From positions 1-33,844 of the IMG/VR virus record IMGVR_UViG_3300032334_000133: a DNA stretch of 33,844 nt. One strand, 5' to 3'. The notes under the pieces were generated by a model. The model was not told the DNA's origin, did not search any database, and worked only from the letters and a program-made list of their open reading frames with translations. Both the position numbers and the translations under genes were made by a program. The DNA comes from a virus. Below are positions 2 to 33,844 of this stretch, in pieces; the first letter of the stretch is position 1; each line of letters begins with the position of its first letter.

Positions 2-169
2 CAATGGGTGGATTTCGTATCCTACGATCCGCGATTACCCGAAGATTTGCAGTTGTTTGTGCATAGGTTCGACCGCGATGAGAAACGCATTGAGGAAATC
101 GAAGCAGCAGTAACGCAGTTCCTGACTGAAGTAACCGAAATGATTGACAAAATTAAGGAGACAAACTAA
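2..169 (+). CDS. YqaJ/lambda-type exonuclease, C-terminal part (5' end cut by window)
   Basis: Open in frame from base 2 with no start, ending in TAA at 167-169. The 55 residues begin QWVDFVSYDPRLP, which matches the WYFANYDPRM region of lambda Exo near its C-terminus, and continue as a charged helix. The N-terminal part of the same family starts at 33434 and runs off the right edge, so the two pieces are most simply one gene split by linearisation of a circular genome. The enzyme would be a 5'-3' double-strand exonuclease that works with the ERF annealing protein encoded just upstream. The stop overlaps the next start (TAATG). Confidence 0.85.
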   Translation, partial: QWVDFVSYDPRLPEDLQLFVHRFDRDEKRIEEIEAAVTQFLTEVTEMIDKIKETN

Positions 170-423
170 TGGCTTATGTACCGAAACCCGGATCGTTTAC
201 GCTGTTCAAGAACACCAAGAAGGAAACCGATAGCCACCCCGACTACAGGGGCGATGGGATGGATATGAACGGCGAGCCTGTGTGGGTATCAGCTTGGATT
301 CGTGAGGGCGCTAAAGGCAAGTTTATGTCTTGCAGTATGCAGCACAAGAACAAAGATCAGCCGATAAAGAAAAAGGCTGACGCTGCTGATTTGTCCGATA
401 TGGATAGCGACGTACCTTTTTAG
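169..423 (+). CDS. Small protein with SSB-like acidic C-terminal tail
   Basis: 84 residues, start overlapping the exonuclease stop by one base. The N-terminus reads PKPGSFTLFKN, and the middle has a compact WVSAWIREG segment that could be a small beta fold. The C-terminus is acidic and ends in DSDVPF, very like the DDIPF tip with which bacterial SSB proteins recruit partner enzymes. It is too short for a full OB-fold SSB. Its place directly after ERF and exonuclease suggests an accessory in phage recombination or a decoy for host SSB partners. The tail is seen in the sequence; the function is inferred. Confidence 0.75.
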   Translation: MAYVPKPGSFTLFKNTKKETDSHPDYRGDGMDMNGEPVWVSAWIREGAKGKFMSCSMQHKNKDQPIKKKADAADLSDMDSDVPF

Positions 424-18953: not shown

Positions 18954-19435
18954 TAGCCAGGCATTGCACCTGTGCCAATAACCGCGATGCCAGCAGCGAT
19001 ACAAGTAACTGCGGTGGCATTGGAGATCGTGCGGGTCGAAGTGCAGCCGATAACCAAACAACCGGAAACCGTTGCATCGTCCAACACACCACCAGTTGCG
19101 GTCGTATACAGAGGCACATTGTCGTCACAGTTAGCTGCAAGGTTAACTTGCATCACACCGGACAACTGCACCCACCCGTAATAGCCCGAAGCAATCGAGA
19201 CTTGCGCGAAACCGACGCGCTTGCTGTTTGCCGAGTTGGTGGTAGTCAGCAAAGCAGCAGTCTGCGAGGCGGTAATGGTCACCGCGCCGTAGGTGCTGAT
19301 TGCTTCAGAGGCTTGCACATACATCGCTTCGCCGCCATCGCTCAACAGCACTTTCGTGCCGGGAGTGAATTGGGCAGTCGATGAAGTATCGGTAAAGTTA
19401 GTGCCGATTACACCTGATACGCTGAAAGTAGGCAT
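18953..19435 (-). CDS. Probable capsid decoration/stabilisation protein
   Basis: 160 residues, beta-rich, starting MPTFSVSGVIGTNFTDT, with AGGAG before the ATG. It contains FTPGTKVLLSDGGEAMYVQA and VGFAQVSIASGYYGWVQLSG, segments common in a family of small phage head proteins that follow the coat gene. Its position directly after the coat gene supports a role on the capsid surface. Not matched to a named family with certainty. Confidence 0.7.
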   Translation of the reverse strand: MPTFSVSGVIGTNFTDTSSTAQFTPGTKVLLSDGGEAMYVQASEAISTYGAVTITASQTAALLTTTNSANSKRVGFAQVSIASGYYGWVQLSGVMQVNLAANCDDNVPLYTTATGGVLDDATVSGCLVIGCTSTRTISNATAVTCIAAGIAVIGTGAMPG

Positions 19436-19449
19436 TTTCGTTTCTCCTA

Positions 19450-20682
19450 TTAAGCAATCAGCACGCCGCAGAACTGCGGGCCGCTGCTCGTCAAATTACC
19501 TGCCCAACCAATAAGCTTAACAATCATTCTGTTACTTTCGGCCTTTCGGCTTACTGACCCTTTCGGGCGGGGATGCCGCTTCGGACTTCCCTCCGAGCTT
19601 TCCTTTGTTATGGCTCGGTTCAGACTATCGCATCCGCTTTCGCGGCCCTCTCACTTAGTCGTTCACGCTGCTTTCGCTTGCGCCCTGTCGCCCGCTTCCG
19701 GGCTTCCAAGTCAATCAGAGAAGGTTTAGAGACGCCATTAATGCAAAGTAGGTTTAGCGTCTTGGTTCACAGCCTGGCGCTCGCCACCAATCGGAACAAA
19801 GTTCCGGTCAGCGTGCGGACGGAACATAAGGTACTTGGTGTTCAAGAAGAACATATGGTTAGCGGTAGCGGAAGAACCGATACCACCGTCCAGCACCACG
19901 TCCGAAGCCATACCAGCGCCAAAATATTTCAGCGAAGCAAAGCCTGCACCGGCCATCGACGAACCGCTGTCGGTAATACGCTGAATCGACTGAAGCGATT
20001 GCAGGTACAGACGATAGTAGTTGTTGTCAGCCACGATCAGGTCAGGCTTGTCCGTACCCCGGATCAACTGAACCGCAACGCTGTCCATGTACTGCTGAAT
20101 ATTGCTTGCAGTAACAGCAGCACCGCCGTTAGTCACGCCGGAGTAAGACACCGAGCGCCAAAACGTCCAGGTCGCACGATCAATACCGCCGTAAGTACCG
20201 GTAGCCGGGCTATCAGGCACAGCAGCGCCCAAGCCGGTCAGGTTCTTACCTGCGTTACCCGTTCCGTCCAGGTACAGGTCGCCGCTGATACGGTTAGCGA
20301 TCTGAGCCTCGGCAACAGCCATACGGCCATCGAGCAAGTCGATGATCGCTTCCTTGCCGCTGTTCTGAATCATTTCCAGGCCGCTGATCGAAACTGCCGA
20401 TGCGTACTGAGTGATAGAGAACTGCGCCGCAGAGATCGGACTGTTTTGGCTCACATTCAACACTTCATAGCCGCTATAGCTGTTGGTGTTGTTGGTGGCC
20501 GTGTCGTTGTACATAATCTCTTGCAAGATCACGTTACCGCCGGAGAAGGTCTTAACGTTTCCACGTTCCTTCAGTCGGCGCAAGAGGGCGTTGTTGTTTG
20601 TTACGTTGTCAGCGAGTTCACCAGTACGACTTTGGATGTTGGTCGCAATGATATCGCTGATAGAACTATTGGCGAAAGCCAT
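19450..20682 (-). CDS. Major capsid (coat) protein, gene split by a group I intron
   Basis: Exon 1 is 20682-19756 (309 codons) and exon 2 is 19524-19450 (24 codons plus TAA). Joined, they encode 333 residues. The unspliced frame stops after 314 residues (…NQDAKPTLH), short of the usual end. The joined end, NQDAIVKLIGWAGNLTSSGP continuing to the final LIA, reads like a normal coat C-terminus of this type. The body has features of an HK97-fold coat: N-terminal helix region, VLNVSQNSPISAAQFSITQY, a spine helix around EAQIANRISGDLYLDGTG, and FFLNTKYLMFRPHADRNFVP. AGGAG lies before the ATG. It follows the scaffold gene, as expected. Confidence 0.88.
19525..19755 (-). ncRNA. Group I self-splicing intron in the coat gene (231 nt, no ORF)
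   Basis: Pairings read from 5' to 3' on the minus strand. P1: exon AGACGCU (19762-19756) with guide GGCGUCU (19736-19730), ending in the required U-G wobble at the 5' splice site. P3: CCUUCUC (19724-19718) with GAGAGGG (19652-19646). P4: CUUG/CAGG. P5: GCCCG-GAAG-CGGGC (19703-19690). P6: CGC/GCG with an inner GC-GAAA-GC. P7: GACUA (19660-19656) with UAGUC (19627-19623). P8: CCGC-GAAA-GCGG (19645-19634). P9: CCGAGC/GCUCGG (19618-19593). Two small GAAA hairpins follow. The last base is G (19525). P10: exon 2 AUUG with UAAU just before the guide. No endonuclease ORF fits inside it. Confidence 0.92.
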
Positions 20683-22032: not shown

Positions 22033-22376
22033 AGAAGTAACAGAATTTCCTCGTCGTCAATTTCTACGTGCTGATGCCATATCTGTTCAGCATTCTTAAG
22101 ATCAGCGATCAATTTATCAAAATTAAGATTACTTGTCAAAATTTGTTGTTTGGTTATGTAATTCAACGGCTCGACAATTTCGGGGATATCCTCTTTGCCT
22201 TCAACAATTCTTTCATACAAGGCAAGCACTTCACGACGACGCTCCTCCCGTACCGCTTTTTCCCTTGCAAAGCGATCTTTCAGTTTGTCGCCGTCATGGG
22301 TATCAAGGTCAATCAGCGTGGGAACGTAATCCCACGTTGCCTGATCCCATGTGCCGGTGTCCCATCCCCCGTTCAT
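22029..22376 (-). CDS. Hypothetical head-module protein
   Basis: 115 residues. A Trp-rich N-terminus (GGWDTGTWDQATWDYV) is followed by a charged helical region (KDRFAREKAVREERRREVL) and an acidic leucine-rich end (EIDDEEILLLL). It overlaps the portal gene and the next gene by four bases each. No known domain is apparent. A structural or assembly role is suggested only by its place. Confidence 0.72.
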   Translation of the reverse strand: MNGGWDTGTWDQATWDYVPTLIDLDTHDGDKLKDRFAREKAVREERRREVLALYERIVEGKEDIPEIVEPLNYITKQQILTSNLNFDKLIADLKNAEQIWHQHVEIDDEEILLLL

Positions 22377-24685
22377 GTAACGATTTCAACCCCGACAGCT
22401 TTGCCGTCCGGCCCACGGATGATGCGTTTAGGCGCAGCCATGACATTCATTAGGTTGTCGATCTTGCCCGCAGTCTGATCGTGCAGCATCGCCATATCCT
22501 GCTGTAGCCTCTCGACGTTTTGCAGCGCCATTTGCACGCCATTGCCTAGCTCAGCGGTCATGCGCTCAGCAGAGGCAGTTGCAGCCTCAACCAGCGGAAT
22601 ATCCACGCCAGGATTCGCCCCAATCCTTGCCACGGTAACTTTTGTTGCTGCATCAAGCTCAGTTTTCCACCGGTTGTATTGTTCTTCCATCTCACTTTTC
22701 TGACGGTCAAACTCCAGTTTCTGCGCGTCCATCTGCGCCCGCATCTGCTCGACTTCAACTTCGCGCTGCGTCTTAGCCTGCTCAAGCTGCAACTTTGCTT
22801 GATCCATTTGCATCTGCGCTTGCAACTTTGCTTGCTCAATCTGCATCTGAGCTTGCATCTTGGCCTGTTCAAGCTGCCCGTCTGCTTGCATCTTGCCTTG
22901 CGCCATCTGCTGTTCTGCTTGCATTTTGAGCATCTCAGGGTCAGGCTGCGGCTCGACCGGGGGCTTGTTAACCAGTTTGTTGATTGACTGATCAATAGCG
23001 CCCTCAATCTGCCTTGCACCCTTAAATGCACCGACTCCAAACTTGAGCAGCTCGCCAATCATCGGGATCATTTCCGGCGCTTGCTGACCTAACGGCAATG
23101 CTTCGCGCAAGAACGAGCCAAACGCTTGCAAGAACTCGCCGCGCTCTTGCTTCATTTTCTGCTCGTCAAGCTGAACGAGAGAGTCAGCAGCCACTTCGAT
23201 GCGGAAATTACGCAACGGCTTGTCTTTTAGCAATGCGAGTGCTTGGGGGATCAACTGCTGATCCTCGGGTTGCATCTGATTCGCCGCTGCAAACATGAGA
23301 ATGGTTTGCGGTTGGAACTTGGTGCAGATAACTTGCGCTTTCAGTCTGAGCAAGCCCGTCGCAAACAGCGCCACATCCTCCTGCATCGAGCGCAGACGGA
23401 TCGAGGCGTATTGCCCTTTAATTTGCTGTGCTGTAGCCGTCTCGGACGCAAAAGACGATCCACGGATAATGTCCGAAAGACCTGTGATCTCATAGATTTG
23501 ATTCTTGATCTCAGTCCGCGCCTGATAGCATTGAATCAGCGTCTGGGCAATCATGTCGATGGGCAAGAAGTCAATCGCGCCCTTCAAGCCGCCCTTCTCA
23601 CCGAACGCCATCCAGGTATCGACTGGCAACAGCGCGTTGTTCTCGCCCTCGGTCATCAGTCGCTGCAAAGCGGGCTGAGAAGCGTCATAAACGCCCCTGA
23701 CGCGCAAAGCCTTGACCAAACCATCTATGCGGTCGCTGAGAATATCAAGCTCGTTAGCCTGATCCTGATACAGCACAAAGTCAGCCACCGGAACAAGGGT
23801 GTCGCTCGTCATGGTGGCATAGAGCGGTGGCGGGCAGGGGAAGAATCCCTCTAGTTCTAGCGGATCGTCGCGCTCGTCAATGATGTTAGGCATTGACTTG
23901 CTGAACCAATAAACCTTGCCCGTTTCCTTGTCCCAATACTCACAAATCTTTGCGCGGGTGTGTTCTTTCGTGCTTTGACCGTATTGCTTGAGGGTGTCCG
24001 GGCCTGCATCAAAAGGAATCTTGTTGCCCACTTCTTCGCCGAAACGCTCAACCAATGCCTCGCGGGTCATGTATACCCAGCGCCAAACAGCCGTTACTTC
24101 CTCCCATGTACGCGCTACTGCATGGCCAAAGTCTTTCCAGTGCACATAGTCAATCGGAGCGCATTCGTACTCGATCTCCTCCATTGGCTCTTCACCTGCA
24201 AGAGCGTCATCGTGTGCACCGGGTTCAGGTTCGTCTATGTCCTCGGTCACTTCCAGGCCATCTTCGGGCATATCAACAGCGTTGACGTGCGGCTCATAGC
24301 GCACCCAGGCAGTCCCACGCCCGCCAAGAAAACGATCCTCAACTGCGTGTTTCATGGTTGCGCGGAAATCAGGGTAATGCTCAATCTCAAAATCTAGCGC
24401 CCGCTCTATCAGCAGGGAAGCCACCCGTCCAACTTGGTCATTGTCACCGAAGCGACGCGATACATCAGCTTTGGGCAGACGCGCATAAACAGCAGGGATC
24501 AACGTCTGAACGTTTGACCACAGGATGTTGAACTTAGCCGTTTCGTTCGTGTTTTGGCTGCGGTTGTCGTCCCGGTAACGCTTGATGATCTTCTGAGCGC
24601 GGGCTTCCCACTTCTTGAAATCACCGTCATACGCTGCGACGTTATGCAGCAGCTTCTGCAAGCCTGTGCTTTGTTCTTCGCTCAT
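22373..24685 (-). CDS. Portal protein (P22 type)
   Basis: 770 residues, close to the size of P22 gp1. N-terminal signatures are KWEARAQKIIKRYRDD, FNILWSNVQTLIPAVYARLP and VEDRFLGGRGTAWVRYEP. Mid-region features are DYVHWKDFGHAVARTWEEV and the ITGLSDIIRGSS loop. From about residue 575 a long Gln/Met/Ala-rich coiled coil with near repeats of QAKLQAQMQ runs for about 90 residues, as an extended C-terminal barrel helix. The ring of portal subunits is the DNA entry channel and the docking site for terminase and adaptor. Confidence 0.93.
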   Translation of the reverse strand: MSEEQSTGLQKLLHNVAAYDGDFKKWEARAQKIIKRYRDDNRSQNTNETAKFNILWSNVQTLIPAVYARLPKADVSRRFGDNDQVGRVASLLIERALDFEIEHYPDFRATMKHAVEDRFLGGRGTAWVRYEPHVNAVDMPEDGLEVTEDIDEPEPGAHDDALAGEEPMEEIEYECAPIDYVHWKDFGHAVARTWEEVTAVWRWVYMTREALVERFGEEVGNKIPFDAGPDTLKQYGQSTKEHTRAKICEYWDKETGKVYWFSKSMPNIIDERDDPLELEGFFPCPPPLYATMTSDTLVPVADFVLYQDQANELDILSDRIDGLVKALRVRGVYDASQPALQRLMTEGENNALLPVDTWMAFGEKGGLKGAIDFLPIDMIAQTLIQCYQARTEIKNQIYEITGLSDIIRGSSFASETATAQQIKGQYASIRLRSMQEDVALFATGLLRLKAQVICTKFQPQTILMFAAANQMQPEDQQLIPQALALLKDKPLRNFRIEVAADSLVQLDEQKMKQERGEFLQAFGSFLREALPLGQQAPEMIPMIGELLKFGVGAFKGARQIEGAIDQSINKLVNKPPVEPQPDPEMLKMQAEQQMAQGKMQADGQLEQAKMQAQMQIEQAKLQAQMQMDQAKLQLEQAKTQREVEVEQMRAQMDAQKLEFDRQKSEMEEQYNRWKTELDAATKVTVARIGANPGVDIPLVEAATASAERMTAELGNGVQMALQNVERLQQDMAMLHDQTAGKIDNLMNVMAAPKRIIRGPDGKAVGVEIVT

Positions 24686-25121: not shown

Positions 25122-25435
25122 GATGCTGAGAAAATGCCAATAGCCAACACTTCAACACCCGCGCCGGTCGTGATTTTCCACGCTCCATTGCGAGATACCG
25201 CATTGATTTCGATATCGTAACTGTTGATTCCTGTACCTGCGCTTGCAGGCAGAATGGTGTGCGTAAAACCTGATCCATCAAGAATGACAACGTTGCCGGT
25301 TAATGCGGTAGTGACCGTGCAGACCAAGCGATGCAAATAATCGCCCGTTGCCCCATTTGTACCCAAAACTTGCGCCGTCTGACTTGCCGCGACGTGTTCG
25401 TATTGATACCTGTACGGATAATTAACGCCACTCAT
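25118..25435 (-). CDS. Small beta-rich head-module protein
   Basis: 105 residues, starting MSGVNYPYRYQYEHVAASQT, with strands LHRLVCTVTTALTGNVVILD and NGAWKITTGAGVEVLAIGIF. It looks like a small beta-sandwich of the type seen in head decoration or head-fibre proteins. It lies directly after the large terminase. No named family is certain. Confidence 0.72.
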   Translation of the reverse strand: MSGVNYPYRYQYEHVAASQTAQVLGTNGATGDYLHRLVCTVTTALTGNVVILDGSGFTHTILPASAGTGINSYDIEINAVSRNGAWKITTGAGVEVLAIGIFSAS

Positions 25436-26763
25436 ATTCGTGCTCCTTTAGGTTTAGCAGTTGCCCACATATCGTTGAGGGTAACTGTGTTTTGCGGGCC
25501 TACCATCAAAGGCTTCTCTCTATCCGGCGCTTTGAATACCGGTTCATTCTTCCAGCTTATCGCCATCATACGAAATGCGTCGGCAGGGTGGCTAGTCCAA
25601 TCGTGCCTCGGGGTCTGCCTGAATGCCTTTTTGTCCTCGTCATATTCACGTTGGTATTGCTTTAACGCCTCGATGCCCTCGTAACACTTGTTGTCGAACC
25701 ACGTCGTGGGGATCATCTTCCTTACCGCTTGGATGCCGTCTTGTACCGAGAGATCAGGAACGATGCTAAGTGTCCCAAGCCCCAGGTGCTGTGCAAGCTG
25801 CTCGATAATGCTCTTTCCTCCGCTTGCAAGGGTCTTAGCCTTTGCGTCGTGCGGTAGGTAGTGCTTGCCGTAGCGGTAGCCTCGGTCGGTAATGACTTGG
25901 GCAAGTTCCTCGATGTTCGCGCCCGATACCGAGTAAAAGTCGATAACATGGATTTCTCCCCGAACGACCTGATACCACCAAATAGCGGTGTCATCCCGAT
26001 AGCCTAAGTCCCAGGCTGTGTGAACAGGCACAACGGGATCGACAGCGATGTTCGTAAAGCGTCCTTGCTCTTCGGCTTCCCTGAGTTCTGTGCCATAAAA
26101 AGAACCGAGAATTGAGGCTTCGAACGAAGTCTCCATCTCTTGCAGATACTGATCCTCGGTTAATTGCGCCCTAGCTGCTTTTAGTTCAGAGGGAGGTAGC
26201 AGCCCCGACGAAGAGGCGGGCAGGCGCAGCAAGAACCATTCATCAGGGTTTTGCCTTGCTGTCTCGTAGATGTTCCAAAACTGATTCTTTCCTTTAGGCG
26301 TGCCACCAAACACACACCATCCCTGCTTGTCAGCGAGGGCGGGTCTTATGACGTTGCCCCATACGCTAGGCTTGAAGTCGCCATACTCGTCCAGGTATAT
26401 CCCATCGAAGCCCAAGCCCCGCATCGCATCGGCATTATCAGCACCAAATAGCCTGATCTTCGCCGCGTTCATCAGGGTAACTGTCAGTTCGGCCTCGTTG
26501 CTGTCCAAGATGATCGGTTGAGCAAAGTTCTTCAGGTAATCCCAAACGACTGACTTAGCCTGGCTGCGGTACGGTGCGACATAGCCAAACAAAGGGAAAG
26601 CTGTCTTACAAGTAGCCGCTGCCCTGATTACGTCATTGATAGCCGCTACGGTCTTACCTGCCCGCCGGTGCGCTACGAGACAGCCCCACCGCTGCGTCCT
26701 TGCATGGAAGGGTAGGAATGCCGGTCGAGGCGCGTAGGGGAGGATTATTTCGGATCGGCCCAT
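25432..26763 (-). CDS. Terminase large subunit
   Basis: 443 residues. Walker A is AHRRAGKT (31-38), Walker B is GIYLDEYGDF with Asp125 and Glu126, and the coupling motif is VFGGTPKGKN (151-160). The RNase H-like nuclease begins with AWDLGYRDDTAIWW (Asp252) and ends with HDWTSHPADAFRMM (388-400), which supplies the late Asp residues. The length is typical. The ATPase pumps DNA through the portal and the nuclease cuts concatemers. It overlaps the small subunit candidate by 19 bases. Confidence 0.96.
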   Translation of the reverse strand: MGRSEIILPYAPRPAFLPFHARTQRWGCLVAHRRAGKTVAAINDVIRAAATCKTAFPLFGYVAPYRSQAKSVVWDYLKNFAQPIILDSNEAELTVTLMNAAKIRLFGADNADAMRGLGFDGIYLDEYGDFKPSVWGNVIRPALADKQGWCVFGGTPKGKNQFWNIYETARQNPDEWFLLRLPASSSGLLPPSELKAARAQLTEDQYLQEMETSFEASILGSFYGTELREAEEQGRFTNIAVDPVVPVHTAWDLGYRDDTAIWWYQVVRGEIHVIDFYSVSGANIEELAQVITDRGYRYGKHYLPHDAKAKTLASGGKSIIEQLAQHLGLGTLSIVPDLSVQDGIQAVRKMIPTTWFDNKCYEGIEALKQYQREYDEDKKAFRQTPRHDWTSHPADAFRMMAISWKNEPVFKAPDREKPLMVGPQNTVTLNDMWATAKPKGARI

Positions 26764-31527: not shown

Positions 31528-31671
31528 TTAGTTGCTGCTCCCCGGAGCCGCGACATTCGTCAGCCTTTCGGTCATGGATGCTAACTTCGCCGTCCATCTG
31601 TGCGCTGTTACAGACCTAAGCCACCGGTAGCGCTGTCCACTCATGCCGCCGTTGCTTTCATTGCCCGGCAT
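31528..31671 (-). CDS. Possible small basic protein (47 aa)
   Basis: An ATG ORF of 47 codons in the 400-base gap between the Cro-like gene and the methyltransferase. The product (MPGNESNGGMSGQRYRWLRS, then a basic helical VTAHRWTAKLASMTERL) is Arg- and Thr-rich. The ribosome site is weak. It lies just after a terminator, so it would need readthrough or its own promoter. Otherwise 31456-31681 shows only another tiny ORF (31465-31521, 18 codons with AAAGG upstream) and no RNA that I recognise. Confidence 0.35.
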   Translation of the reverse strand: MPGNESNGGMSGQRYRWLRSVTAHRWTAKLASMTERLTNVAAPGSSN

Positions 31672-31681
31672 GGTGTAGTCC

Positions 31682-31858: not shown

Positions 31859-32080
31859 CTACTGCTGCGGGACGATCTCGGCAACCATCTGCTCGACGGG
31901 GATGTAGTCCGTAGGGTTGACCTTCAGAGCGCCGTTTGTGACCACCTGGAGCTTGTACGCCATGCCTTCGGGAATCTGCCCACGCTTCGCCCATTGGCTT
32001 ACTGCCTGGCTCGTAATGCCCAACGCCTCGGCTAGTTTGCGACGGTTGCCAAAGTGGGCTTCTGCTTGTGCGATTTTCAT
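31859..32080 (-). CDS. Cro-like (YdaS/Cro family) regulator
   Basis: 73 residues from MKIAQAEAHFGNRRKLAEAL, with AAGGA six bases before the ATG; a longer start at 32113 is unsupported. Residues 13-32 form a helix-turn-helix (RRKLAEALGITSQAVSQWAK), followed by GQIPEGMAYKLQVVTNGAL, as in Cro and YdaS proteins. The gene faces the early rightward operon across a 194-base control region with promoters in both directions. No CI-type repressor or integrase was found, so it probably times early and late expression rather than lysogeny. Confidence 0.85.
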   Translation of the reverse strand: MKIAQAEAHFGNRRKLAEALGITSQAVSQWAKRGQIPEGMAYKLQVVTNGALKVNPTDYIPVEQMVAEIVPQQ

Positions 32081-32116
32081 GATGTTCCTTTGATGGTTAA
32101 AGATAACTTGCAAAGC

Positions 32117-32146
32117 ATCCTAACCTGTGTCAATCTATCTTGTCAA
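32117..32146 (-). promoter_or_regulatory. Leftward promoter for the Cro-like gene
   Basis: Minus strand TTGACA (32146-32141), 18 bases, TAGGAT (32122-32117). It starts transcription about 30 bases before the regulator's ATG. A second TTGACA lies inside the spacer. Confidence 0.6.
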
Positions 32147-32197
32147 GCGGAATTGATTTACTTAAGAATACTTTACAATTTTCCTTTGCAACAAGTG

Positions 32198-32226
32198 TTG
32201 ACAATGTGCAATTAGGTAAGTAAAGT
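32198..32226 (+). promoter_or_regulatory. Rightward early promoter
   Basis: TTGACA (32198-32203), exactly 17 bases, TAAAGT (32221-32226). A perfect -35 box and optimal spacing just upstream of the first rightward gene. Together with the leftward promoter it forms a divergent early control region. The AT-rich CTTAAGAATA at 32161-32170 between them could be an operator. Confidence 0.75.
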
Positions 32227-32241
32227 CCGTCCTGTAGCACA

Positions 32242-32256
32242 AATTGACAACAACAA
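32242..32256 (+). repeat. Direct repeat AATTGACAACAACAA, copy 1
   Basis: Fifteen-base sequence in the leader of the first early gene, identical to 32490-32504 before the second. CAA-rich unstructured leaders can enhance translation. It is not a promoter: no -10 box follows at the right distance. Confidence 0.6.
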
Positions 32257-32274
32257 CTTTTCGGAGGTTTCCCG

Positions 32275-32463
32275 ATGTTTGATTTCCAAGTAGTTCCTTT
32301 CGACTTTGCCTCTACCGAGGTAACTATCGTCGCTCAGTCTGAGCGTGGCTTGCAGTTGTTTGCGGAGCGTTATGGCTTTGCCTGCACTAGCATCAACGTT
32401 CGCAAGTCGGTTGCTCCCGACGTTGCGGAAAAAATAGAGGCTCTCGGTTACACCATTCAGTAA
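32275..32463 (+). CDS. Hypothetical first early protein
   Basis: 62 residues, MFDFQVVPFDFASTEVTIVA, then AERYGFACTSINVRKSV and a C-terminal helix VAEKIEALGYTI. GGAGG lies seven bases before the ATG. It looks like a small alpha/beta fold. As the first gene after the early promoter it may act on the host, but no motif supports a particular function. Confidence 0.75.
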   Translation: MFDFQVVPFDFASTEVTIVAQSERGLQLFAERYGFACTSINVRKSVAPDVAEKIEALGYTIQ

Positions 32464-32470
32464 ACCAAAC

Positions 32471-32486
32471 GGGGGCGCAAGCCCCC
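32471..32486 (+). other. Strong GC hairpin between the first two early genes
   Basis: GGGGGC - GCAA - GCCCCC, a six-pair stem with a GNRA loop, placed eight bases after the first early stop. No U-run follows, so it is more likely an RNA stability or attenuation element than a full terminator. Confidence 0.6.
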
Positions 32487-32489
32487 ACT

Positions 32490-32504
32490 AATTGACAACA
32501 ACAA
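32490..32504 (+). repeat. Direct repeat AATTGACAACAACAA, copy 2
   Basis: Second copy, directly before the AAGGAG ribosome site of the second early gene. See copy 1 at 32242-32256. Confidence 0.6.
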
Positions 32505-32515
32505 GGAGCAACAAC

Positions 32516-32803
32516 ATGAACCTCTGCAAAAATTGCGCGCACTACAAGAAAAACACCGACAACATCGAAGCAAGCGAATGCACACGTAAGCCCCAGTTCT
32601 CGCCTATCAGCGGGCACGTACTGCCGACGTTCTGCAACCTTGAACGTAACGCTTGGGGAACGTGCAAGCCCGAAGGTGTCCACTTCAAACCACGCGAATC
32701 AATAATGACTGAGTCAGAACTAGATCACGAATGGGCGCGACGCATGAATCGTGGCGAGTTTGACCAAGACACTTTTGGTCGCAGACTGGTGGCTGGAACA
32801 TGA
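32516..32803 (+). CDS. Cysteine-rich early protein
   Basis: 95 residues from MNLCKNCAHYKKNTD, with AAGGAG nine bases before the ATG. Cysteines occur as CKNC, EC, FC and TC within the first 50 residues (CKNC...SECTRKP...TFCNLE...GTCKPEG), fitting one zinc site with spare cysteine or a disulphide knot. A charged helical C-terminus (ELDHEWARRMNRGEFDQD) follows. Small Cys-rich proteins of this form are common in phage early regions; function unknown. Confidence 0.75.
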   Translation: MNLCKNCAHYKKNTDNIEASECTRKPQFSPISGHVLPTFCNLERNAWGTCKPEGVHFKPRESIMTESELDHEWARRMNRGEFDQDTFGRRLVAGT

Positions 32804-32874
32804 ACGGCGACCGCGCAGTAGCCATCGGCTTCACAATCATTTTTCTACTTATCGTTACGGGAGTATTGGCATGA
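32800..32874 (+). CDS. 24-residue single-pass membrane microprotein
   Basis: MNGDRAVAIGFTIIFLLIVT and VLA at the end. A short polar N-terminus is followed by one hydrophobic helix of about 17 residues. Start and stop both overlap their neighbours as ATGA, so it exactly fills the space between the Cys-rich gene and ERF, which strongly suggests it is translated. Possibly an inner-membrane peptide affecting host membrane processes; role unknown. Confidence 0.68.
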   Translation: MNGDRAVAIGFTIIFLLIVTGVLA

Positions 32875-33437
32875 GCGTTTACACAAAATTGATGCAAGCA
32901 AGGCTGTTCCTGCAAGCCACGAAGTTGACCAAGTCGGGCGAGAACAAGTTTGCCGTATACAAGTATTTTGAACTGGGTGACTTCTTGCCCACCGTCCAAG
33001 AAATCTTTCATAACTTGGGACTGTGCGGAGTTGTCAGCTACACCGCCGACATTGCCCGCCTAACCATCATCGACACCGAAGATGGCTCGCAACTCGAGAT
33101 TACTTCGCCAATGGGTAGCGCCGCCTTGAAGGGATGCCACGAAGTGCAAAACATCGGGGCAGTCGAAACCTACCAGCGCCGCTATCTTTGGGTCACGGCA
33201 ATGGAAATCGTCGAGCATGATGTGCTGGATGCGACTAACGGCAAGGATGCCCCTCAGAAACGCTTAGATTCGCTTAACGCGCACTTGGACGCTATTGCCG
33301 CAGTTACCACACAGGACGCGCTAAAAACGGCTTATACGCTTGCCTACAAAGCCGCCAAGGAACTTAACGACACCGAGGCCATGACAGCAATCGTCGCTGC
33401 CAAGAATTCCCGCAAAGCCGAACTGGAGGAAGCATGA
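32871..33437 (+). CDS. ERF-family single-strand annealing protein
   Basis: 188 residues from MSVYTKLMQARLFLQATKLT, starting at the ATGA overlap with the microprotein. ERF signatures are KYFELGDFLPTVQEIFHNLG, then ITSPMGSAALKGCHEVQNIG and AVETYQRRYLWVTAMEIVEH DVLDA. The C-terminus is a helical Ala/Lys tail. It anneals complementary strands made single-stranded by the exonuclease that follows, giving phage recombination and probably concatemer formation or circularisation, as in P22. Confidence 0.93.
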   Translation: MSVYTKLMQARLFLQATKLTKSGENKFAVYKYFELGDFLPTVQEIFHNLGLCGVVSYTADIARLTIIDTEDGSQLEITSPMGSAALKGCHEVQNIGAVETYQRRYLWVTAMEIVEHDVLDATNGKDAPQKRLDSLNAHLDAIAAVTTQDALKTAYTLAYKAAKELNDTEAMTAIVAAKNSRKAELEEA

Positions 33438-33844
33438 AACTTTTGTCAATAATGCAAGGCACGCCGGAATGGTTAGCTGCCCGCGCTGGCAAGGTAACGG
33501 CTAGTCGGATCAGCGACGTGATGGCGGCTAAAACTACCGCAGCTTACAGGGACTACAAAGCGCAGATCGTGGCTGAGATTCTGACCGGAGTTCCGCAGGA
33601 GTCCGGCTTTGTAAATGACTATATGCGCTGGGGCACAGAGCAAGAAAAGTTTGCCCGCGCCGAGTACGAACTGGCTTGCGATTGGACGGTGGACGAAGTG
33701 GGGCTAGTCATACATCCAACGATTGAACAGGGCGCAGCTAGTCCCGACGGCTTAGTGTCTACCAATGGTCTAGTGGAAATCAAGTGCCCTAAGACGGCTA
33801 CGCACCTGCAAACGCTGGTGGACAAAAAACAGCCTCGCCAGTAC
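33434..33844 (+). CDS. YqaJ/lambda-type exonuclease, N-terminal part (3' end cut by window)
   Basis: 137 residues and still open at the edge. MKLLSIMQGTPEWLAARAGK and VTASRISDVMA form the usual N-terminus. The catalytic core has SPDGLVSTNGLVEIKCPK with the Asp and Glu-x-Lys of the nuclease. The frame ends on a whole codon (…RQY) at the point where lambda Exo continues with about 13 residues before the ANYDPRM region. That region is found at base 2 of the window. GGAGG lies before the ATG, which overlaps the ERF stop. Confidence 0.93.
   Translation, partial: MKLLSIMQGTPEWLAARAGKVTASRISDVMAAKTTAAYRDYKAQIVAEILTGVPQESGFVNDYMRWGTEQEKFARAEYELACDWTVDEVGLVIHPTIEQGAASPDGLVSTNGLVEIKCPKTATHLQTLVDKKQPRQY

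Follow-up and report, generated by a model that had tools for sequence, protein, structure and literature searches.

A viral metagenome contig with ends in one predicted exonuclease gene very probably represents a nearly complete circular phage map

Closest phages and gene layout

Among named phages, the nearest large terminase (TerL) belongs to Rhodoferax phage P26218, with 46% identity over 90% of the protein; this phage is not represented among the matches that the same collection gave for the portal (9) and the capsid (12). The nearest named capsid (50–52% identity) and portal (34–38%) proteins are those of Myxococcus phage Mx8, Stenotrophomonas phage BUCT555 and Bradyrhizobium phage ppBjS10J-1, whose genomes of 39–50 kb are distant from the phage described here. 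A literature search on circular permutation in Mx8 and Myxococcus phages found nothing on this subject.

The window, i.e., the whole stretch of DNA that was analysed, comprises 33,844 bases and corresponds to the entire virus record IMGVR_UViG_3300032334_000133 (G000). Two viral contigs, G006 (3300043449_000243, 33,783 bp) and G009 (3300012006_000018, 33,389 bp), keep the order of shared genes found in the window, with a continuous exonuclease gene (Exo). Pieces aligned by blastn cover 24,581 (G006) and 21,716 (G009) of the 33,844 window bases, and TerL is 88% and 96% identical to that of the window, respectively. Both contigs differ from the window in being cut elsewhere, in having overlapping ends, and in carrying their capsid-gene inserts at other sites. 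The window's methylase gene has no match in either of them, and its lysozyme gene has none in G006.

Among solved structures, the points of reference are PDB 3syy and lambda exonuclease (1avq), matched by the intact Exo of a relative (L003) with E-values of 3.3e-58 and 2e-15, respectively. Unlike these proteins, the window's Exo gene consists of two parts, one at each end of the contig, with 13 residues unseen. We assign a probability of about 0.94 to the reading that this single metagenome contig holds all but 38 bases of the approximately 33.88-kb circular map of a tailed phage, opened at an arbitrary place inside Exo. The sequence thus very probably represents an ordinary bacterial virus that has not been cultivated, with its circular map nearly complete.

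PHROG and Pfam matches identified terminase, portal, capsid, lysis, tail-type, recombination and regulator genes in the record (Table 1), and the capsid gene counts among the gene-content evidence for genome completeness. The plus strand carries the genes for an ERF-type protein, Exo and a single-strand DNA-binding protein (SSB) in a block that spans both contig ends, while the terminase, portal, capsid, tail-type, lysis and early genes lie on the minus strand. ERF, Exo and SSB genes together make up the usual phage recombination operon. In the window, the ERF stop codon overlaps the Exo start (ATGA), and the Exo stop and the SSB start share one base.

Table 1. Positions of the features discussed in the text, numbered along the window.
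Feature	Position	Strand	Basis
Exonuclease (predicted, YqaJ/lambda-Exo family), residues 1–137, cut by contig end	33434..33844	+	PHROG 149, PF09588, 3syy/1avq
Exonuclease (predicted), last 55 residues and stop	2..169	+	3syy match, spacing in relatives
ERF-type single-strand annealing protein	32751..33437	+	phrog_155, PF04404
Single-strand DNA-binding protein (SSB)	169..423	+	phrog_18154; gene after Exo in relatives
Large terminase (TerL)	25432..26763	-	profile matches
Portal protein	22373..24685	-	phrog_12082
Major capsid gene, two parts (20682–19756 and 19524–19450), joined = 333 aa	19450..20682	-	relatives
Cro-like regulator	31859..32113	-	PF14549

Two parts of an exonuclease gene at the contig ends

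At the right end, an open reading frame runs to the last base without a stop codon and encodes 137 residues, the last of which, RQY, lie downstream of an EIKCP motif. This right part matches the Pfam family PF09588 (YqaJ) with 85.3 bits (cut-off 22), as well as PHROG 149 (exonuclease), PDB 3syy and lambda exonuclease 1avq. The sequence VEIKCP, visible in its translation, contains the E-x-K catalytic motif of the YqaJ/lambda-Exo family. At the left end, a frame open from base 2 encodes 55 residues starting with QWVDFVSYDPR and terminates at a stop codon at 167–169; base 1 (g) is the third position of the codon before these, which is otherwise missing. The left part matches residues 148–199 of 3syy with an E-value of 2.4e-11, is at chance level against lambda exonuclease 1avq (E 0.97), and produced no Pfam match when searched alone. 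The original prediction had taken the two ends for parts of one exonuclease gene, and this agrees with the 3syy matches of both the first 137 and the last 55 residues. The gene split across the ends is accordingly annotated here as a predicted exonuclease of the YqaJ/lambda-Exo family (PF09588).

The size of the gap was estimated from relatives. A scan of viral contigs with the right Exo part yielded 103 confirmed stretches, the best 80 of which were kept. Both Exo parts are present in 79 of these best 80; in the sole exception (L080), the contig ends 45 bases past the match, leaving no room for the left part. The two parts are separated by 39 bases in 77 of the 79 relatives and by 42 bases in the remaining two, L079 and L081, both of which belong to the three most divergent sequences of the set (36–37% identity). 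The last of the 39 positions is still present as window base 1, which leaves 38 bases missing. The frames of both Exo parts agree with those of the relatives, and 13 residues fall outside the contig.

The structure 3syy leads to the same number: the right end reaches approximately residue 134 (query residue 133 corresponds to chain residue 130) and the left end starts at residue 148, therefore 13 residues lie between them. The intact L003 Exo (205 codons) aligns over 3syy residues 8–204 and is gapless in the junction stretch. The commonest peptide in the gap among the relatives is ENQMLWQMACTGR, and we infer that the missing 38 bases, together with window base 1, encode 13 residues resembling it. 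The earlier estimates of only about 40 missing bases and of about 13 residues between the ends, the latter originally placed on lambda Exo, are thus borne out by the spacing in relatives and by 3syy.

The possibility that unusually conserved junction DNA forked the assembly graph was also considered. In a comparison covering 41 of the 80 loci, with 29 distinct sequences among them, the mean pairwise identity was 0.894 and 0.885 in the two 39-base junction blocks versus 0.808–0.885 in the other 13 blocks, so that the junction ranked highest by a narrow margin. The share of identical pairs was not raised at the junction (0.025 and 0.027, versus 0.007–0.086 in the other blocks). The exact last 28 bases of the window occur in 6 viral contigs, all of them among those reading on through Exo; a search with its exact first 30 bases gave no match in viral contigs.

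Over its last 34 bases, the right end matches L002 exactly, while the first 17 bases of the left end include 5 differences from L002 and are nearer to L011. The two ends could therefore come from two strains, in which case the contig would be a composite of a species-level circle assembled from co-occurring strains. Mosaic genomes would show the same pattern, and the gene order of the window agrees with that of the compared relatives; we consider the composite unlikely.

Still less probable is that the junction of a near-complete circle hides a larger insert in Exo, such as an intron or a homing-endonuclease gene, and that this unseen mobile element stopped the assembly. The idea draws on the mobile-looking inserts in the capsid genes of this phage group, which show group I marks in the window and include a GIY-YIG gene in G006, a contig that is itself cut within its capsid insert. 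At the place in question, however, none of the 79 relatives holding both Exo parts has an insert, and we regard one confined to the window as very unlikely.

Relatives across the junction and the circular map

Ten Exo-bearing long relatives, chosen from 24 candidates, were fetched full length, along with ten further long relatives from 18 selected by capsid similarity; G042 alone of the latter has an Exo relative. Flanks running into different genes, which the original prediction had named as evidence against itself, were looked for in these relatives: all ten long Exo-bearing contigs instead continue unbroken in the order ERF, Exo part 1, Exo part 2, SSB.

No end repeat was found in the window, either as an exact match or by blastn of its first versus its last 500 bases. 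According to the CheckV description of closed contigs, closure by a direct terminal repeat needs at least 20 bp (PMC8116208), and the window has no direct terminal repeat of this length. Its closure rests instead on the complementarity of the gene parts and on the relatives.

Overlapping ends were present in 7 of the 20 long relatives. The repeats are exact in G006 (34 bp), G015 (127 bp), G041 (123 bp) and G042 (51 bp), and at least 99% identical and no more than 5 bases from the ends in G009 (98 bp), G025 (126 bp) and G034 (130 bp); G033, with ends alike at 88%, was left out of this count. Exo is present in four of the seven (G006, G009, G015 and G042), none of which is cut inside it. The cut point of G006 lies in the insert near the start of the capsid gene, that of G034 between the capsid gene and the next gene, those of G025 and G041 between the portal gene and the gene after the capsid gene, and that of G009 between lysis-side genes and tail genes, while the cuts of G015 and G042 fall at other places on the shared gene order. 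The cuts are unevenly spread, with four of the seven falling in the capsid-to-portal stretch, three of these four in relatives without Exo. Relatives of the same gene order are thus cut at other points than the window, as on a circularly permuted map. The CheckV description also points to assembler words as the source of many overlaps, at lengths such as 55, 77 and 99 bp (PMC8116208), and the contig overlaps of 34–130 bp found here may be of this nature.

Linear relatives were compared with the window circle as well. The missing part amounts to approximately 3.1 kb in G010, 7.1 kb in G005, 8.9 kb in G016, 8.1 kb in G007 and 7.0 kb in G008, measured between the outermost matches; these values would be smaller if contig ends without a match (up to 0.7 kb) were taken into account. 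The calculation covers 5 of the 13 relatives without a counted overlap, G012 and G004 being not cleanly placeable. The window lacks only 38 bases versus the ~3–9 kb lacking in these five contigs. The predicted size of its circle is 33,882 bp, and the relatives closed by exact end repeats measure 33,749 bp (G006, 34 bp removed) and 34,089 bp (G015, 127 bp removed). The proposal of a nearly complete genome of about 33.9 kb agrees with these closed relatives. That the genome is circular or permuted, as also proposed, is supported by the complementarity of the Exo parts, by the relatives that join them, and by the overlapping-end relatives cut elsewhere.

In the preferred reading of a nearly complete circular map, the circle would have been opened within the exonuclease gene by the assembler or by later trimming, at an arbitrary place. 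The circular map itself would arise either from circularisation of the phage DNA on infection or from headful cutting of concatemers into permuted molecules. A circular map is expected both for cos-ended circularising phages and for headful packagers with permuted molecules; circular, cos-ended and permuted (headful) DNA are indistinguishable from contigs. The contig ends themselves have no biological role.

It is highly improbable that the window is only a piece of a longer linear genome or of a prophage, its ends belonging to two different exonuclease genes. Such an origin would suit the lack of an end repeat and the presence of a Cro-like gene, a kind found in temperate phages. Against it, the ends are complementary in the frame and spacing of the family, and relatives of 33–34 kb join them. 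Moreover, genome contigs of bacteria and archaea were scanned once with the portal protein, a search that addresses close relatives only, and none of its 3 candidate stretches was confirmed; no integrase was recognised among the 50 window ORFs compared with PHROGs (small ORFs being partly covered). True physical ends of virion DNA inside Exo, whether cos or another defined terminus, are suggested only by the contig stopping there and can practically be dismissed, given that the 10 long Exo-bearing relatives continue without a break and that the four overlapping-end Exo carriers are cut elsewhere.

With the circle closed in this way, a record that lacks end repeats could be treated as a nearly complete genome: its gene complement and layout become interpretable in full, and a gene's absence becomes informative. 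Comparing the two ends of a contig as parts of one protein can likewise close other contigs that fail the terminal-repeat test, although the contig end itself is biologically ordinary.

The 18 long capsid-similar contigs include a single Exo match (G042, 57%), and 9 of the 10 that were fetched inform only on the structural-gene map. G015, G012 and G004 match the early genes of the window and showed no match to its capsid or portal. Because of these three contigs, and because 17 of the 18 capsid relatives have no Exo match, it looks as though phages have exchanged the early half, which carries Exo, and the structural half, which carries the capsid gene.

Capsid-gene inserts and the early region

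Mycobacteriophage LittleE carries an intron in its major capsid gene, most likely of group I according to its authors (PMC3706429). Comparison with relatives revealed a 231-nt insert in the capsid gene of the window, at 19525–19755 on the minus strand, located after codon 309 and 24 codons before the stop. Its excision would give a 333-aa protein, the same length as in uninterrupted relatives, instead of the 314 aa obtained when the frame is read unspliced. As in the LittleE intron (PMC3706429), the last base of the exon is U and that of the insert is G. In the predicted fold, the exon end pairs with the insert (P1), placing a U.G pair at the splice site; the folding method is of a kind that cannot show pseudoknots (P3–P7 core). 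Searches with Rfam RF00028 gave no match at E-values up to 1 in the window or up to 10 in 19400–19900.

Of the 80 capsid relatives fetched, 79 reach the insert site, and four of them (L106, L112, L162 and L171) have the same insert at the same place, 231 or 239 nt long. In an alignment of the five inserts, 8 of the 68 predicted pairs show pair-keeping changes on both sides; seven of these eight stem only from L162 and L171, which implies few independent events, and 3 predicted pairs are broken in one or two of the five sequences. Judged from its sequence, the 231-nt insert of the window bears marks of a group I intron and is a candidate intron with predicted splicing.

The LittleE intron is longer (819 bp), contains an HNH gene and has its splicing documented by RT-PCR (PMC3706429), whereas the 231-nt insert has no such gene and its splicing is predicted. 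Jug phages have many short group I introns (~206 nt on average) predicted in essential genes, resembling the candidate of the window in this; they differ in being huge gut phages, and the source gives terL and nrdD, rather than the capsid gene, as its named examples of interrupted genes (PMC12363816). With capsid-gene introns and short phage group I introns already in print, the kind is known (PMC3706429, PMC12363816).

Two other insert sites were noticed in capsid genes of the relatives. One lies after about residue 27 in G006, G010 and L172 and includes a GIY-YIG gene in G006. The other, in G009, lies after about residue 84 (L083:18920-19139) and matches RF00028 with 62.5 bits.

The early region resembles that of a temperate phage. 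No CI repressor was recognised beside the Cro-like gene in 31859–32500, and weak matches to repressors and excisionases came from the Cro-like protein itself. Downstream of this gene, at 31555–31675 on the minus strand, lies a match to Rfam RF02932 (Betaproteobacteria-1 RNA, an orphan RNA). It was not found in G004 and G012, and the G010 contig starts before that place. The same RNA occurs at the matching place in seven relatives (G005, G006, G007, G008, G009, G015 and G016), with one further copy in G027. Its position suggests a betaproteobacterial host and, as a guess, a role early in transcription, for instance in antitermination.
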